Shown here piece by piece: positions 8,994 through 26,464 of a stretch of DNA of 64,000 bases. The notes below the pieces were generated by a model. That model did no database searches and was not told the origin of the DNA. It saw nothing but the letters and a program-made list of their open reading frames with translations. The DNA comes from Paraburkholderia sp. D15 (GTDB lineage Bacteria; Pseudomonadota; Gammaproteobacteria; Burkholderiales; Burkholderiaceae): the NCBI RefSeq assembly GCF_029910215.1, contig NZ_CP110395.1:1984001-2048000 (forward strand), written 5' to 3'. The number at the start of each line of letters is the position of its first letter. Position 1 is the first letter of the stretch. Both the position numbers and the translations under genes were made by a program.

Positions 8994-9223
8994 CGTTCTC
9001 CATCCCGTACCGAAGTCCACCTGGCGTATGCGGCGCATCGCACCCGGCTATTGATCGCGATTACGGCAGGCGGCGCGAAAAACTTGACTAAAACCCCTGC
9101 AAAACGCCGACACTGTCAACCTTTTGGCGCGGTTGCCGTTATCCATTTGTAATCGCCTGAGACAGGCGACGCCGTGGCGGACGATCCGACGCCGCGACCG
9201 CTCCATGCAAGGCCGCCTTGACC

Positions 9224-11827
9224 ATGTTCCACCGATATAACAACACGTTCGCCCGGCTCGGCGCGACGCTCTCGCGTGCGCCGCGTTTCCTGAAAACGCT
9301 CGGCGGCCGCGGCGTCCTCTCGCCCATCCTCGCGCTCGTCATCTGCGGGCTCCTGCTGGTCGTCCTGCAACATCTTTCGCAAGCCGTCGACTATCGCTCC
9401 GTGATGCGCCAGCTGCGTCATCTGACGGCCGGCGAGTGGTGCGCGGCGCTCGGCGCGACCGCGCTCAGCTTTGTCGCGCTGGTCGGCCGCGATGCCGTCG
9501 GCCTGCGCTATCTCGGCACGGCGGTGCCGCGTATCGCGCTGTGGGTCGGCGCGATCGCCGGGTCCGCGCTCGGCAACGCGACCGGCTTCGGCGCGCTGAC
9601 GGGCGGCGCGGTGCGCGCGCGCGTCTACGGCGTGAGCGGCGTGACGCCCGTGCAGATCGGCCGCATGACGGTGTTCACGAGCGTATCGCTCGCGCTCGCG
9701 CTGGTGCTGATGACCGCGCTCGGCATGGTCGGCGCGGCCGGCACGCTCGCGCCGATGCTGCATCTGTCGCCGCTCGCGCTGCGCTGGACCGGCGCGGCGT
9801 TGCTCGTCGCGCTCGCGCTCGCGGCGGCCGCCTGCCGGCGCGACACGCGGCCGGTGCGCACGCGCTGGCAATGGCTTTCGTTCGATATTCCCGCGCGCCG
9901 CGACCTGCTCGCGCAGATCGCGCTCGCCGTGCTCGACGTGGTGGCCGCGGGCCTCGCGTTGTGGGCGCTGCTGCCGCACGCGGGCGTGAGCTTCACGAGC
10001 TTCGTGACGATCTACGCGGCGGCCATGCTGCTCGGCATGATCGGGCACACGCCGGGCGGCGTCGGCGTGTTCGAGGCGGCGATGGTGTTCGCGCTGAACG
10101 GCAGCGTGCAGACGCACGAGATGCTCGCCGCGCTGCTCGCGTATCGCGCGATTTATTTCGGCGTGCCGCTGATCGTCTCGGCGGGATTGCTCGCGGGCTT
10201 CGAGGGGCGCGCGCTGAAAGGCCGTCTGCCGCTGCGCCACGCGGCCGGCGTGTCGAAACTGGCACCGCTGTTTCTGAGCCTCGTGACGTTTCTCGTCGGC
10301 GGCATGCTGGTGATTTCCAGCGCGACGCCCGCGTTCTGGCAACGCATCCGGATTCTGCGCGACGTGCTGCCGCTGTGGGTGCTCGAAAGCTCGCAGATGC
10401 TGTGCAGCGTGCTCGGCGTGCTGCTGTTGTTCGTCGCGCGTGGTTTGCTGCGGCGGCTCGACGCCGCGTGGTGGATGACGTTGCTGCTCGCGGTGCTGAG
10501 TCTCGGGTTGTCGTTGACCAAGGGTCTTGCCTTCGTCGAGGCGGGCGTGCTCGGCACGCTGATCGTGCTGCTGCTGTCCACGCGCAAGCGCTTCAGCCGT
10601 CACTCGTCGCTGTTCTCCGAACGCTTCACCGCGGGCTGGCTGGTGTCGATCGCGATGGTGCTCGCGCTGGCCGTGTGGGTGATGCTGTTTGCCTTCCGCG
10701 ACGTGCCGTACACCCGCGACCTGTGGTGGCAATTTGCATTCGACGAGCGCGCGCCGCGCGCGCTGCGCGCGACGCTGGCCGCGAGTCTGTTCGCGGCGAC
10801 CTTCGCGTTCTGGCAGCTGTTGCGTCCGGCCGCGGGCCGCTTTGTCAAACCCGCGCCGGAAGATCTGCTCGACGCCGCGCGCATCGTGCGCGCGCAGGAG
10901 CGCAGCGACGCCGGTCTCGCGCTGATGGGCGACAAGAGCTTCCTGTTCTCCGAGTCGCGCGAGGCCTTCCTGATGTACGCGAAATACGGCCGCACGTGGG
11001 CCGCGCTGCACGATCCGGTGGGACCGCGCGAGGAGTGGGCCGGCCTGATCGGCAAGTTCGTCGCGCTCGCGCATGCGCACGGCGGCCGCGCGGCGTTCTA
11101 CCAGGTGCGCGCGAACGCGCTGCCGCTGTATCTCGACGCGGGCCTCACGCTGATGAAACTCGGCGAGGAAGCCCACGTGGTGCTCGACGATTTCGATCTG
11201 AAGGGCTCGCACCGCGCGCATCTGCGCTATGCGTTAAAGCGTGGCGAACGCGACGGCTTCACCGTCGAGGTGATCGATCAGGCCGACGTGCCCGCATCGC
11301 TCGAAACCTTGCGGGAGATTTCCGACGGCTGGCTCGATAGCCGCGACGCGCGCGAGAAGAGCTTCTCGGTGGCCGCCTTCAACGACGAATACCTCGCCGC
11401 GCAATCGGTGATGCTGGTGCGCCAGAACGGCGAACCCGCCGCCTTCGTCACCTTCATGACGACCGATCTCAATACCGAGGCCACCGTCGGCGTGATGCGC
11501 CACGTGGAAAGCGCGTCGCCGTATGCGATGGAATATCTGTTCACCCAACTGGCGCTGCATCTGAAGCAGGCGGGCTTCCGCTCGCTGAGCCTCGGCATCG
11601 CGCCGCTCTCCGGCATGCGGCCGACGCCGCTCGCGTCGCGCTGGCACCGCATCGCCGGCATCGTATGGCGCTTCGGCGGCCGTTTCTATAACTTCCGCGG
11701 CTTGCGTGCTTTCAAGAGCAAGTTCCAGCCGCACTGGGAGCCGCGCTATCTCGCGGCGTCAGGTTCGGTCGGCGTGTTCTTCACGCTCGCGGACCTGTCA
11801 TTGCTGGCAGGAGGCCGGCGTTCATGA
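9224..11827 (+). CDS. lpiA: MprF/LpiA bifunctional aminoacyl-phosphatidylglycerol synthase and flippase
   Basis: 867 residues. The N-terminal half (to about residue 510) holds a dozen or more hydrophobic segments of the lysyl-phosphatidylglycerol synthase TM/flippase type, including TPGGVGVFEAAMVFAL. The C-terminal part (about 545-860) is the soluble DUF2156 synthase domain with GDKSFLFSESREAFLMYAKY and LKGSHRAHLRYALKRGERDG. It should transfer an amino acid (lysine or similar) from aminoacyl-tRNA to phosphatidylglycerol and flip the product, lowering surface charge against cationic peptides and acid. The ATG at 9224 is used; an in-frame TTG lies two codons earlier. It is coupled by ATGA to an AcvB-type gene, as in Agrobacterium lpiA-acvB. 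Confidence 0.87.
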   Translation: MFHRYNNTFARLGATLSRAPRFLKTLGGRGVLSPILALVICGLLLVVLQHLSQAVDYRSVMRQLRHLTAGEWCAALGATALSFVALVGRDAVGLRYLGTAVPRIALWVGAIAGSALGNATGFGALTGGAVRARVYGVSGVTPVQIGRMTVFTSVSLALALVLMTALGMVGAAGTLAPMLHLSPLALRWTGAALLVALALAAAACRRDTRPVRTRWQWLSFDIPARRDLLAQIALAVLDVVAAGLALWALLPHAGVSFTSFVTIYAAAMLLGMIGHTPGGVGVFEAAMVFALNGSVQTHEMLAALLAYRAIYFGVPLIVSAGLLAGFEGRALKGRLPLRHAAGVSKLAPLFLSLVTFLVGGMLVISSATPAFWQRIRILRDVLPLWVLESSQMLCSVLGVLLLFVARGLLRRLDAAWWMTLLLAVLSLGLSLTKGLAFVEAGVLGTLIVLLLSTRKRFSRHSSLFSERFTAGWLVSIAMVLALAVWVMLFAFRDVPYTRDLWWQFAFDERAPRALRATLAASLFAATFAFWQLLRPAAGRFVKPAPEDLLDAARIVRAQERSDAGLALMGDKSFLFSESREAFLMYAKYGRTWAALHDPVGPREEWAGLIGKFVALAHAHGGRAAFYQVRANALPLYLDAGLTLMKLGEEAHVVLDDFDLKGSHRAHLRYALKRGERDGFTVEVIDQADVPASLETLREISDGWLDSRDAREKSFSVAAFNDEYLAAQSVMLVRQNGEPAAFVTFMTTDLNTEATVGVMRHVESASPYAMEYLFTQLALHLKQAGFRSLSLGIAPLSGMRPTPLASRWHRIAGIVWRFGGRFYNFRGLRAFKSKFQPHWEPRYLAASGSVGVFFTLADLSLLAGGRRS

Positions 11828-13128
11828 CCTTGGATTCGTTTTTGCATTCGTCTGTGCGTTCGTCCTTGCATGCGTGTTTCCGGCTCGCCGTGGTGGCGGG
11901 CCTCGTGGGCGGCAGTTCCCTCGTTCAGGCCGCCAGTTCCACCGTGCCGGGCGGCCGTTTCGGCGACGTGACGGTGACGCAGCCGAGCGGTCCGTTGCGC
12001 GGCTTCGTGGTGCTGTACTCGCAGTCCAGCGGCTGGAGCGCGGCGGATCAGCAGAGCGCCGACGCGCTCGCGAAAGCCGGCGCGTTGACTGTCGGCGTGG
12101 ATACGGCGCGCTATGCGGCGAACCTCGCCGCGACGAAGGAGACCTGCCACAAGCTGGTCGGCGACGCGGAATCGCTGAGCCATCAACTCGAACGGCAATC
12201 GCAGTCGACGCATTACTACGCGCCGATCGTCGCGGGTACCGGGCAGGGCGCGACGCTCGCGATGCAGGTGCTGGAACAGGCGCCGTCGAACACGATCGCC
12301 GGCGCGGTCTCGGTAGACCCCGAGCGCACGCTCGACGCACGCTTCCAGCCGTGCCCGCCGGACCCGACGGTGATCCGCGACAAGGTGCCGGGCTTCGTCG
12401 AAAAAGCGGTGACGGGCAAGGCCGACCGCGCGCGCCTCGTCGCGCTGCTGACGCCGCATCTGCAGACACTGCCGACGGGCGACGACGATGTCTCCGACCT
12501 GCCGCTGATCGAACTGCCGGCCGCGCATCCGAACGGCCTGATGGCGATCGTGATCTCCGGCGACGGCGGCTGGCGCGATCTCGACAAGACCATCGCGCTC
12601 GGCTTGCAGAAGGACGGCGTGTCGGTGGTCGGCTGGGACAGCCTGCGTTATTTCTGGAGCGAGCAGTCGCCCGCGCAGACCAGCCGCGACCTCGCGCGCG
12701 TGATGCAGACCTACGGCGCGCGCTGGCACGCGCAACATATCGCGCTGATCGGCTATTCGTTCGGCGCCGACGTGATGCCGTTCGCCTACAACCGTCTGCC
12801 CGACACGCTGAAGAGCAAGGTCTCGCTGATGTCGCTGCTCGGCTTCGCGGCGGACGCCGACTTCCAGATTCGCGTCGGCGGCTGGCTCGGCATGCCGGCC
12901 AGCGACAAGGCGCTGAAGGTGCAGCCCGAACTCGCGCACGTACCGCTCTCGCTGATGCAGTGTTTCTACGGCGAGACCGAGAAGGACACCTTGTGTCCGG
13001 AGCTGGGCAAGCAGGGCGTCGAAGTGATCCGCACGTCGGGCGATCACCACTTCGGCCGCGACTACAACGCGCTCGAGCAACGCATTCTCGCGACTTTCAA
13101 AAAGAAGAGCGGCGTGAGCAAGGATTGA
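11824..13128 (+). CDS. acvB: AcvB/VirJ-type periplasmic lysyl-phosphatidylglycerol hydrolase
   Basis: 434 residues with an N-terminal signal peptide (hydrophobic core CFRLAVVAGLVGGSSLVQA). The C-terminal VirJ domain has an ISGDGGWRDLDKT oxyanion-type motif and a nucleophile elbow IGYSFGADVMPF (GxSxG), with a candidate catalytic His in SGDHHFGRDY near the end. In Agrobacterium AcvB was shown to hydrolyse lysyl-phosphatidylglycerol made by LpiA; the stop-start overlap with lpiA here (ATGA at 11824) supports the same pairing. The length matches AcvB (two VirJ-like parts) rather than the shorter VirJ. The older link to T-DNA transfer need not apply. Confidence 0.83.
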   Translation: MTLDSFLHSSVRSSLHACFRLAVVAGLVGGSSLVQAASSTVPGGRFGDVTVTQPSGPLRGFVVLYSQSSGWSAADQQSADALAKAGALTVGVDTARYAANLAATKETCHKLVGDAESLSHQLERQSQSTHYYAPIVAGTGQGATLAMQVLEQAPSNTIAGAVSVDPERTLDARFQPCPPDPTVIRDKVPGFVEKAVTGKADRARLVALLTPHLQTLPTGDDDVSDLPLIELPAAHPNGLMAIVISGDGGWRDLDKTIALGLQKDGVSVVGWDSLRYFWSEQSPAQTSRDLARVMQTYGARWHAQHIALIGYSFGADVMPFAYNRLPDTLKSKVSLMSLLGFAADADFQIRVGGWLGMPASDKALKVQPELAHVPLSLMQCFYGETEKDTLCPELGKQGVEVIRTSGDHHFGRDYNALEQRILATFKKKSGVSKD

Positions 13129-13130
13129 CA
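13125..13130 (+). promoter_or_regulatory. Consensus -35 element for the ilvA leader, overlapping the acvB stop
   Basis: A perfect TTGACA sits at 13125-13130 on the acvB stop codon. Seventeen bases downstream is only a weak -10 candidate (GAAGAT, 13148-13153). If this is the promoter, transcription would begin at about 13160, almost at the leader ATG, giving a nearly leaderless leader peptide. Confidence 0.4.
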
Positions 13131-13160
13131 AAACGCGTCACGTCAACGAAGATCGCCCAC

Positions 13161-13223
13161 ATGAACTGCCTCGACATCCGTATTGCGCTGATTATTAGCA
13201 TCATTCATCGAATGGTGGGTTAG
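13161..13223 (+). CDS. Isoleucine-rich 20-residue leader peptide for ilvA attenuation
   Basis: The 21-codon frame encodes MNCLDIRIALIISIIHRMVG. Six of twenty residues are isoleucine, five of them in an eight-codon stretch (13182-13205) including ATT ATT and ATC ATT pairs, and leucine is also present. It lies 38 bases upstream of an intrinsic terminator that precedes ilvA, whose product makes the first committed isoleucine precursor. The last codons plus stop (GGTGGGTT, 13214-13221) can pair with the terminator's 5' arm, so a ribosome stalled on the Ile codons would favour readthrough and one reaching the stop would favour termination. The Shine-Dalgarno is weak. Confidence 0.75.
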   Translation: MNCLDIRIALIISIIHRMVG

Positions 13224-13260
13224 CGCGCGTCGACTTGCAGTGACTACGCAGTGACAAAAT

Positions 13261-13287
13261 AACCCGCCCCACGAGGCGGGTTTTTTT
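13261..13287 (+). terminator. Attenuator terminator upstream of ilvA
   Basis: AACCCGCC at 13261-13268 and GGCGGGTT at 13275-13282 make an exact 8-bp stem with a six-base loop, followed by a T-run to 13287. The 5' arm can alternatively pair with GGTGGGTT at 13214-13221 (one G-U pair) in the leader, giving mutually exclusive terminator and antiterminator. Confidence 0.8.
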
Positions 13288-13377
13288 ATGTCCGCTGTCA
13301 GGTTCAAAACCCTGCCTCCTGGTCGATTCCCGCTGTATCGATTCACTCGATTCTTGCCGTTCATTCAGGAGACTGCC

Positions 13378-14949
13378 TTGCCGTTCCATGAAGTCACCCC
13401 GGTGGCCGAAGCCGCCGACAGCGTCGCGCTACGCCACGACTACCTGAAAAAAACCCTCACCGCGCGCGTCTACGACGTGGCCCGCGAGACCGAACTCGAA
13501 CGCGCGCCGAACCTGTCGGCACGGCTGCGCAATCCGGTCTATCTGAAACGCGAGGACAACCAGCCGGTGTTCTCGTTCAAGGTCCGCGGCGCGTACAACA
13601 AGATGGCGCACATTCCGGCCGAGGCGCTGGAGCGTGGCGTGATTACCGCATCGGCGGGCAATCATGCGCAGGGCGTGGCGCTGTCGGCGGCACGCATGGG
13701 CGTGAAGGCGATCATCGTCGTGCCGGTGACGACGCCGCAGGTGAAGGTCGACGCCGTGCGCGCGCACGGCGGCCCGACCGTCGAGGTGGTGCAGTTCGGC
13801 GAGTCGTACAGCGATGCCTACGCTCACGCGGTGACGTTGCAGGAAGAACGCGGCCTGACCTTCGTGCATCCGTTCGACGACCCGTACGTGATCGCGGGAC
13901 AAGGCACCGTCGCGATGGAAATTCTCAGCCAGCACCAGGGGCCGATCCACGCGATCTTCGTGCCGATCGGCGGCGGCGGGCTCGCGGCGGGCGTGGCCGC
14001 GTACGTGAAATCGGTGCGTCCGGAGATCAAGGTGATCGGCGTGCAGACCGACGATTCGTGCGCGATGGCGATCTCGCTGAAAGCGGGCGAACGGGTCACG
14101 CTGAATGAAGTGGGCCTGTTCTCGGACGGTACGGCGGTCAAGCTCGTGGGCGAGGAAACCTTCCGGCTGTGCAGCGAATATCTCGACGACGTGCTCACCG
14201 TGAACACCGACGCGTTGTGCGCCGCGATCAAGGACGTCTTCCAGGACACGCGCAGCGTGCTTGAACCGGCGGGCTCGCTCGCCGTGGCCGGCGCGAAGCA
14301 GTATGCCGAGCGTGAAGGCATCGAGAACCAGACGCTGATCGCGATCACGTCGGGCGCGAACATGAATTTCGACCGCATGCGTTTCGTCGCCGAACGCGCC
14401 GAGGTCGGTGAAGCGCGCGAAGCGGTGTTCGCGGTGACGATCCCCGAAGAGCGCGGCAGCTTCAGGCGCTTCTGCGAACTGGTCGGCACCCGCAGCGTCA
14501 CCGAATTCAACTACCGGATCGCGGATGCGAACTCCGCGCATATCTTCGTCGGCGTGCAGATCCGCAATCGCAGCGAGTCCGCGCAGATCGCGGGCGCGTT
14601 CGAGGCGCACGGTTTCGCCACCGTCGACCTGACCTTCGATGAACTGTCGAAGCAGCACATCCGCTACATGGTCGGCGGCCGCTCGCCGCTTGCGCATGAC
14701 GAACGGCTGTTCCGTTTCGAGTTTCCGGAACGGCCGGGCGCGTTGATGAAGTTCCTGTCGTCGATGGCGCCGAACTGGAATATCAGCCTGTTCCATTACC
14801 GGAACCAGGGCGCGGACTACAGCTCGATTCTCGTCGGCATTCAGGTGCCGGAGAGCGAGAACGCCGCGTTCGACCAGTTTCTCGCGACGCTGGGTTATCC
14901 GAACTGGGAAGAGACGCAGAACCCGGTGTATCGCCTGTTTCTCGCGTAG
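13378..14949 (+). CDS. ilvA: Threonine ammonia-lyase, biosynthetic (threonine deaminase)
   Basis: 523-residue PLP enzyme converting threonine to 2-oxobutanoate, the first step of isoleucine synthesis. The PLP lysine is in FSFKVRGAYNKM (about residue 64), the phosphate-binding loop is PIGGGGLAAG (about 201), and TSGANMNFDRM closes the catalytic domain. Two C-terminal ACT-like domains (about 345-520) mark the isoleucine-feedback-inhibited biosynthetic form. The TTG at 13378 is preferred since AGGAGA lies five bases upstream; the ATG at 13288 falls on the T-run of the terminator and would add 30 unlikely residues. It is controlled by the leader/attenuator just upstream. Confidence 0.93.
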   Translation: MPFHEVTPVAEAADSVALRHDYLKKTLTARVYDVARETELERAPNLSARLRNPVYLKREDNQPVFSFKVRGAYNKMAHIPAEALERGVITASAGNHAQGVALSAARMGVKAIIVVPVTTPQVKVDAVRAHGGPTVEVVQFGESYSDAYAHAVTLQEERGLTFVHPFDDPYVIAGQGTVAMEILSQHQGPIHAIFVPIGGGGLAAGVAAYVKSVRPEIKVIGVQTDDSCAMAISLKAGERVTLNEVGLFSDGTAVKLVGEETFRLCSEYLDDVLTVNTDALCAAIKDVFQDTRSVLEPAGSLAVAGAKQYAEREGIENQTLIAITSGANMNFDRMRFVAERAEVGEAREAVFAVTIPEERGSFRRFCELVGTRSVTEFNYRIADANSAHIFVGVQIRNRSESAQIAGAFEAHGFATVDLTFDELSKQHIRYMVGGRSPLAHDERLFRFEFPERPGALMKFLSSMAPNWNISLFHYRNQGADYSSILVGIQVPESENAAFDQFLATLGYPNWEETQNPVYRLFLA

Positions 14950-25796: not shown

Positions 25797-26464
25797 ACAA
25801 GATATCTTCGGCTCTAATCCCGATAAAGATGATTGTCGGCATCGCACTCGCTTACTCCGTAAACGTTGTCTATGCTCAGGGTCCGTTCTCGGGCGACTGG
25901 AAATATGTAGAACGTGCTGATGCCTCCGGAAAACCCTACTCCACATTTGAGGTGAGATTGACGGAGAGCGCCGACGGTCGGCTCCAAGGCGCCTACTGTT
26001 TCGTAACCCAGAGCGGCAACCGGATCGACTGTGATCCGGATCGTAAAGCGATCAACATAACTGGTCGTGTCGCGACAGACGGCCGGTCAGCCGAAGTTCA
26101 CTTCTACTCGTTTTTCGGCGGAAAGGACGGGGTCGCCGAGCTTGCGACGACGGATGACGAGCTGAATTGGCGAGTCATCCAAAACCCTCGTGGCGATTTC
26201 TTTTACGGTCCCTACAAAGTCAAACTACAAAAAGAGCCAACTGACGAACATCGTGGCGAGCGCCAGGTCAAGGCTGCTAAAGCGTATTTATACGATCAGC
26301 CGTCCACATTGCCAGTTGCCAGGACTTACGTGGTGAAGGGGGACTACGTAAAGCTACTACGCGTGTCGGACGATCTTAAGTTTTGGAGGGTGGAATATGT
26401 CAGTAACAGTGGTGCCGTGATCGAGCGTTGGATCGACTGCCGTGCGATAGCATTCTGTCCTTGA
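25793..26464 (+). CDS. Periplasmic SH3-like protein, probable immunity to the hydrolase
   Basis: 223 residues. The ATG overlaps the toxin stop (ATGA at 25793-25796), so the two are translationally coupled. A signal peptide (hydrophobic IVGIALAYSVNVVYA) directs it to the periplasm, where a peptidoglycan hydrolase would act. The N-terminal half (GPFSGDWKYVERADASGKPY) looks like a beta-sandwich; the C-terminal half (about 150-215, with AYLYDQPSTLPVARTYVVKG and KFWRVEYVS) is SH3-like. Cys pairs could form disulfides. Immunity is inferred from coupling and location only. A terminator follows at once, separating it from the later genes. Confidence 0.72.
   Translation: MNKISSALIPIKMIVGIALAYSVNVVYAQGPFSGDWKYVERADASGKPYSTFEVRLTESADGRLQGAYCFVTQSGNRIDCDPDRKAINITGRVATDGRSAEVHFYSFFGGKDGVAELATTDDELNWRVIQNPRGDFFYGPYKVKLQKEPTDEHRGERQVKAAKAYLYDQPSTLPVARTYVVKGDYVKLLRVSDDLKFWRVEYVSNSGAVIERWIDCRAIAFCP

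Follow-up and report, generated by a model that had tools for sequence, protein, structure and literature searches.

The locus described here lies in a window of 64,000 nucleotides from Paraburkholderia sp. D15 (NZ_CP110395.1, positions 1,984,001 to 2,048,000; coordinates below are those of the window unless marked C1), in which ilvA, the gene for the first step of isoleucine synthesis, is preceded by a short isoleucine-rich reading frame and by an intrinsic terminator that sits between this frame and the structural gene. The region 13125-13287 is predicted, with a probability of about 0.88, to be an isoleucine-responsive transcription attenuator controlling ilvA. The anatomy, the conservation, the covariation, the client genes and the pattern of ilvA copies that bear on this prediction are direct observations. 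A comparison of all Rfam families with the 64-kb window gave a single match at curated thresholds, RF00624, 'Pseudomonas sRNA P9' (sRNA, small RNA), and it falls on this element. The features of the locus are collected in Table 1; the start of ilvA is probably the TTG at 13378, which stands behind AGGAG at 13367-13371.

Table 1. Features of the ilvA leader region, in window coordinates.
Feature	Position	Strand	Basis
Promoter-like pair, TTGACA 13125-13130, 17 nt, GAAGAT 13148-13153; transcription predicted to start at A13161 or next to it	13125..13153	+	Conservation upstream of 81 leaders
Leader peptide frame MNCLDIRIALIISIIHRMVG (then stop), six Ile codons, Shine-Dalgarno not seen	13161..13223	+	Sequence
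Match to Rfam RF00624 P9	13188..13284	+	50.9 bits, gathering 43, full length 1-74
Tandem Ile codons 11-12 (AUU AUU), predicted control codons	13191..13196	+	Ile conservation in Ile-blind loci
1:2 hairpin, 13199-13206 with 13210-13217	13199..13217	+	Fold -7.4 kcal/mol; covariation
Segment 2, GGUGGGUUA, antiterminator 5' arm, overlapping the UAG stop	13214..13222	+	Pairing, alignment
Segment 3, UAACCCGCC, antiterminator 3' arm and terminator 5' arm	13260..13268	+	Pairing, alignment
Segment 4, GGCGGGTT 13275-13282, plus T-run 13281-13287	13275..13287	+	3:4 hairpin -14.0 kcal/mol
ilvA, biosynthetic threonine ammonia-lyase, leader-controlled copy (predicted)	13378..14949	+	TIGR01124 (NCBIfam) 820.3 bits, cut-off 411.3

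The initial annotation of this DNA had reported a 21-codon frame with six isoleucine codons, five of them within an eight-codon stretch, together with an exact terminator stem followed by a run of T, and the frame was confirmed to the base, as was the stem, which a generic terminator scan also finds. Isoleucine occupies codons 6, 8, 11, 12, 14 and 15 (five within codons 8-15), that is six of 20 codons, alongside one valine and two leucines, and the terminator is formed by AACCCGCC at 13261-13268 with GGCGGGTT. The same annotation had paired the end of the leader with the 5' arm of the terminator over eight positions; GGTGGGTT at 13214-13221 is indeed complementary to 13261-13268 with one G-U, and a ninth pair, A13222-T13260, lengthens the arm by one to GGTGGGTTA at 13214-13222. 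A third hairpin, made of 13199-13206 and 13210-13217, shares 13214-13217 with the antiterminator and so competes with it, and the element therefore has the 1:2, 2:3 and 3:4 plan of classical attenuators, including, at the level of sequence, an antiterminator that excludes the terminator and has its 5' arm where a ribosome at the stop would cover it. A chance origin was rejected: GGTGGGTTA and TAACCCGCC spaced 20-48 nt occur together once in the window and in none of 100 shuffles, six isoleucine codons are found in just two of the 393 short ATG frames (12-35 codons, both strands) of the window, namely the leader and a frame on the minus strand near 25842 that was judged by eye only, and isoleucine is enriched at loci found without regard to isoleucine codons (see below). 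The probability of at least six isoleucines among 20 codons at the local base composition is 2.7e-6.

In the mechanism that we propose, the start site, translation, stalling, termination and response to isoleucine are all predictions. Transcription would begin at the A of the leader AUG and the leader would be translated as a leaderless message. With ample isoleucyl-tRNA the ribosome would run to the UAG at 13221-13223 and cover segment 2, upon which the 3:4 hairpin (13261-13282) would form and transcription would end near 13287. When isoleucyl-tRNA is short, the ribosome would stall on codons 11-12 and cover segment 1, thereby freeing segment 2 for pairing with segment 3, and transcription would continue into ilvA. 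If the leader were left untranslated, segment 2 would be held in the 1:2 hairpin and termination would again follow.

A scan of named genomes with a pattern composed of antiterminator arm, UAG and terminator, and blind to isoleucine codons, returned at least 120 loci, in which both antiterminator arms are fixed by the pattern itself. At least three isoleucines are present in the last 15 leader codons at 105 of the 120 loci among the matches listed (a scope that applies to every later count over 120), as against 1.9% of 3197 control TAGs in the same loci, and isoleucine stands at codon -10 in 106, at -9 in 103 and at -6 in 101 of them. Five of the 15 exceptions are Alteromonas loci whose isoleucine codons lie one frame over, one base further. 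Four pattern loci (L106, L130, L180 and L195) look like chance and were dropped before sequences were picked for alignment and before the later leader and codon counts; the codon tally, from which the five Alteromonas loci were also removed, used 111 of the 120. The leader frame, the tandem isoleucine codons, both arms and the position of the leader stop are conserved from Paraburkholderia to Pseudomonas, and leader and terminator were present at all 30 of the best-matching loci that were retrieved through IlvA protein similarity alone. The conservation anticipated in the initial annotation was thus borne out, and the outcome that it had named as fatal, a lack of conservation in relatives, did not occur. 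A model built in this analysis, R1, has matches in 102 of the 144 genomes of the host genus and in 2 of 67 genomes of one further family; spread counts include the genome of strain D15, except for that family, to which it does not belong.

Covariation, likewise anticipated, was assessed in two alignments. A1 contains 44 sequences, the window and 43 of 53 picked relatives, ten being left out by choice, while A2 contains 77 chosen loci and was model-aligned and fitted to the structure, towards which it consequently leans. The 1:2 and 3:4 helices show 27 both-side changes in A1, all within 1:2, as against 7.7±2.2 on shuffling and no value so high in 500 trials, and 71 in A2 (22.5±3.7 when shuffled), of which 68 fall in 1:2 and three in 3:4 (L274, L275 and L256). 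Compensatory changes are hence found in the stems and the 1:2 (pause or protector) hairpin covaries strongly; for 2:3 the covariation is thin because the search pattern had largely determined this helix beforehand, and the 95.2% of its cells that are paired in 77 sequences come mostly from loci selected by the arms. In folds of the transcript to 13274, 2:3 forms when the RNA is masked to 13205, 13208 or 13214 (-21.8, -20.7 and -16.7 kcal/mol) and does not form when it is masked to 13217 or 13235. The ribosome in these folds was assumed to cover the RNA as far as 14 nt beyond the first nucleotide of the A-site codon, and with this footprint stalling at codons 11-12, the conserved tandem, would fit antitermination, while a ribosome at codon 15 would already block segment 2.

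The region upstream of the leader was compared across relatives, with the closest ATG in frame at 14-35 codons ahead of the stop taken as the leader start. Of the 115 loci with a usable ATG, 81 remained once near-identical upstream sequences had been discarded, and in 60 of these 81 TTGAC begins at -38 to -35, where shuffling expects 0.5 and gave at most 4 in 1000 trials. Of the 81, 59 have A at -12, 58 have T at -8 and 70 have C at -1, and the window has C13160 and A13161 at the corresponding positions. With this spacing of the promoter-like pair, transcription is predicted to start at the A of the leader AUG or right next to it. A Shine-Dalgarno-like 4-mer precedes the leader ATG at one of the 81 loci, with 5.8 expected, and the leader frame is probably leaderless, i.e. 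the RNA would start at its AUG. The promoter-like -35 element overlaps the stop codon of the upstream gene, which ends at 13128.

Several observations weigh against an isoleucine attenuator of this design. The tandem isoleucine codons are almost always AUU AUU (AUU at 103 of 111 loci at each), whereby conservation of nucleotides and conservation of codons are not fully separable. The covariation of 2:3 comes from two sequences, L251 and L247, with the arms fixed by the search pattern, and the pair at columns 54/102 of this helix is missing in 17 of 76 sequences. The full RNA to 13290 keeps the terminator as its minimum-energy fold even with segment 1 masked, and as the terminator is the best fold of the finished RNA in all masked states the decision must be kinetic. 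The scarcity of Shine-Dalgarno motifs is statistically mild, as 1000 shuffles go down to 0, the -10 hexamer GAAGAT is poor and a generic promoter scan reports no promoter here. Outside the genus the element is patchy: R1 has matches in 10 of the 250 genomes searched in the order, in 8 of 369 from the class and in 23 of 299 from the phylum, and chance accounts for some of them. The attenuation reading offered in the initial annotation is nevertheless supported by the comparison of relatives and by the pairing anatomy.

The genes that follow the element are ilvA in 73 of the 120 loci, a P-loop kinase of the AAA_33 type in 30 (PF13671 for the two proteins run against Pfam), an NTF2-like gene only in nine (DUF4440/SnoaL_3 for the three proteins run) and none of these in eight, four of which end at a sequence limit and four of which look like chance. 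The next gene is thus ilvA or a recurring client in 112 of the 120, and its start lies mostly within ~200 nt of the terminator. An NTF2-like gene precedes the client in three of the 73 ilvA loci and in six of the 30 kinase loci; as the first gene after the leader in both kinds of operon (L098, L190 and L193; L092, L109, L142, L148, L175 and L191) it ties the two client classes together, and in L241 an NTF2-like domain is fused to the kinase. The genome of the window itself carries a second element of this type before an AAA_33 P-loop kinase gene (C1:1676073-1676157, minus strand, L002/L205; 45.5 bits to P9), with the leader MNQFLINSIISAATSPAG, and both the ilvA and the kinase types are present in Achromobacter pulmonis (L093 and L196). 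When solved structures were searched at an E value of 0.001, the kinase had no relatives among them. By guilt by association, the kinase and NTF2-like genes are likely to be under isoleucine control. Further genes were seen behind such hairpins in single cases or small groups: a GNAT acetyltransferase gene (L255), a second kind of small P-loop gene (L259, L268, L269 and L274-L276, the Pfam matches of L259 being below the cut-off), genes read as thrA with leaders resembling the known thr leader (L277-L279 and L281), and PhzF-like genes (L245, L250 and L251, three copies in one genome, L246 and L262), whose leaders read ..MI.. with hardly any isoleucine and have perhaps changed or lost their amino-acid signal. 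That these PhzF loci keep their hairpins with one or two isoleucine codons, and that kinase, GNAT and NTF2-like genes are among the clients, would suit a switch that senses stalling of ribosomes in general, whether through translation inhibitors or another amino acid. Such a switch is unlikely, given the isoleucines at codons -10, -9 and -6 in the great majority of loci and a main client, ilvA, that serves isoleucine synthesis.

The relation to P9 suggests how an isoleucine attenuator may have been filed under another name. The P9 consensus reads AUU AUU AUU ACC GCC AUU CCU GUU AUG GCG GGU UAG, then AACCCGCC and GGCGGGUU, and is to be read as the isoleucine-rich end of a leader, an antiterminator arm and a terminator. 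Pseudomonas members of the family, P. aeruginosa PA7 included, have leaders of isoleucine codons ending in GGCGGGUUAG, followed by the terminator and ilvA; in PA7 (L190) the leader is MTFATLPTRRSIITAIPAMAG, with an NTF2-like gene and then ilvA behind it, and a score of 89.8 bits, the Pseudomonas loci L190, L086 and L145 scoring 90-92 bits when rounded. P9 was matched by nine of the 12 loci submitted to Rfam, those without a match being L113, L245 and L277, and its model has matches in 41 of 98 relatives (38 over threshold) and, across 369 genomes of the class, in 20, of which 4 exceed the threshold. Weak P9 or R1 matches that by eye resemble ordinary terminators or gene interiors (L037-L039, L041-L047, L049, L050, L052, L053, L248, L257, L258 and L280) were not counted, a screening that did not take in L040 and L048. 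The element of the window shares with P9 a score above gathering, as do the Pseudomonas loci before ilvA, but differs in that P9 is typed as an sRNA gene and its model spans only the 3' half of the leader and the terminator, which are here read as part of an attenuator. The cassette is homologous to P9, which would then probably be the terminated form of the attenuator, and P9 seems to be an isoleucine attenuator that Rfam types as sRNA. A stand-alone, trans-acting sRNA that lies before ilvA by happenstance would agree with this typing, and a terminated attenuator RNA can act in trans, as described for rnTrpL of Sinorhizobium in the parts of PMC7298713 consulted; it is a very improbable account of P9, however, as the conserved part is a frame of isoleucine codons whose stop codon is partly shared with an arm that can pair with the terminator behind it, and as ilvA or a recurring client is so regularly the next gene.

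Known amino-acid leaders of Rfam were rejected as the identity of the element, all scores being under the gathering thresholds: on the plus strand of the window Thr_leader, Leu_leader and Trp_leader reach 18.0, 18.0 and 23.3 bits against 55, 50 and 41. The leaders ilvL of ilvGMEDA and ivbL of ilvBN in enterobacteria are multivalent, with runs of valine, leucine and isoleucine codons, and have in common with the window a leader peptide, alternative 2:3 and 3:4 hairpins and branched-chain genes as targets. The leader at 13161-13223 does not have such multivalent runs and differs from ilvL and ivbL in its six isoleucine, one valine and two leucine codons, in that a Shine-Dalgarno sequence was not seen and in standing directly before ilvA. 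The thr operon leader (RF00506) has the same hairpin plan, and R1 picks up leaders of threonine and isoleucine codons before genes read as thrA (L277, L278, L279 and L281), whereas the window is far below the RF00506 threshold; L277, the sole locus of the thrA type submitted to Rfam, is under the thresholds of RF00506 and P9 alike, and the link to the thr leader is our own reading. In rnTrpL/trpL of Sinorhizobium meliloti the 5' end of the attenuator RNA is the AUG of the leader frame, according to the same parts of PMC7298713, but that system concerns tryptophan and trpE(G), and the two are likened by their 5' end, no sequence relation having been looked for. A literature search for P9 as an sRNA and for the accession RF00624 found no paper, and open-literature titles and abstract openings, subscription papers and supplements lying outside the search, gave no isoleucine attenuator for ilvA of Burkholderia or Pseudomonas. 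The main text of PMC8297930 makes no mention of ilv or isoleucine. A 2013 survey (PMC3766115), in the portion consulted, gave Ile/Val attenuators as absent from Rfam.

The genome of strain D15 has a second ilvA (C1:545838-547355, minus strand, L219), near-identical from residue 18 on and with 98.9% DNA identity over 1440 nt, and upstream of this copy leader and terminator were not found. The copies were compared in 48 genomes of the genus with at most 10 contigs, among the matches listed in the IlvA search: a leader match above 74 bits is present in all 29 two-copy genomes and in none of the 19 one-copy genomes, adjacency of leader and ilvA having been checked in a subset of the 29. Within the genus the switch goes with the extra ilvA copy. 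Among genomes with a single ilvA match, G030 has a decayed leader of 58.7 bits (L213) and G057 a leader that breaks off inside the terminator (L214), which suggests that in both a leader copy was once present and has probably been lost; in G465 and G027 every match scores like the kinase type, G465 being assigned on its score. In all 11 genomes examined leader and terminator accompany one ilvA copy and are missing before the other, and the copies pair up as sisters within each genome instead of grouping by locus. The flanks of the leaderless copy are common to the 11 genomes, and the two queries that were run showed no relation to the flanks of the leader copy. The simplest reading is that the copies evolve in concert through gene conversion confined to the coding region. 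Repeated re-duplication of ilvA is a possible alternative, in favour of which only 6 of the 11 genomes were found to have the gene upstream of the window ilvA at 700 nt or less from their leader copy. The same count makes it hardly credible that the hairpin, although it lies 132 nt past the stop of the gene at 11824-13128 and is recognised as a terminator in either direction, is a mere terminator of that gene behind a chance frame, for leader and terminator accompany all 30 best-matching ilvA loci and the element is conserved as far as Pseudomonas. From a reading of their frames, the upstream genes at 9218-13128 look like mprF and an acvB/virJ-like gene.

We take the element to be a compact, probably leaderless form of amino-acid attenuation that Rfam has concealed under the label of an sRNA. 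The initial annotation did not include the match to P9, the 1:2 hairpin, the promoter-like pair with its probable leaderless start, the extra-copy status of ilvA or the other client genes. New are the identity with P9, the probable start of the RNA at the leader AUG, the association with an additional ilvA copy that evolves in concert with its sister, and the second client class. More tentatively, and as a proposal with somewhat less than an even chance of holding in full, P9 may be a portable, self-contained cassette of ~165 bp (promoter, leaderless frame of isoleucine codons, antiterminator and terminator) set before unrelated genes across Proteobacteria. It would define a hidden isoleucine regulon of ilvA, NTF2-like and AAA_33 kinase genes, the latter two answering isoleucyl-tRNA shortage; of two ilvA copies linked by gene conversion in the host genus, it would make the one that it precedes the regulated isozyme, and the 'sRNA' of Pseudomonas would be the cassette RNA after termination. 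The finding gives a predicted mechanism to a family typed as sRNA and supplies a candidate isoleucine attenuator of the kind that the survey, as far as consulted (PMC3766115), said Rfam lacked. It adds a candidate case, besides trpL, of attenuation with a leaderless leader frame and points to isoleucine control of two uncharacterised gene families. In Paraburkholderia, two ilvA copies apparently kept alike by concerted evolution, with the predicted switch on only one of them, would constitute a natural experiment.

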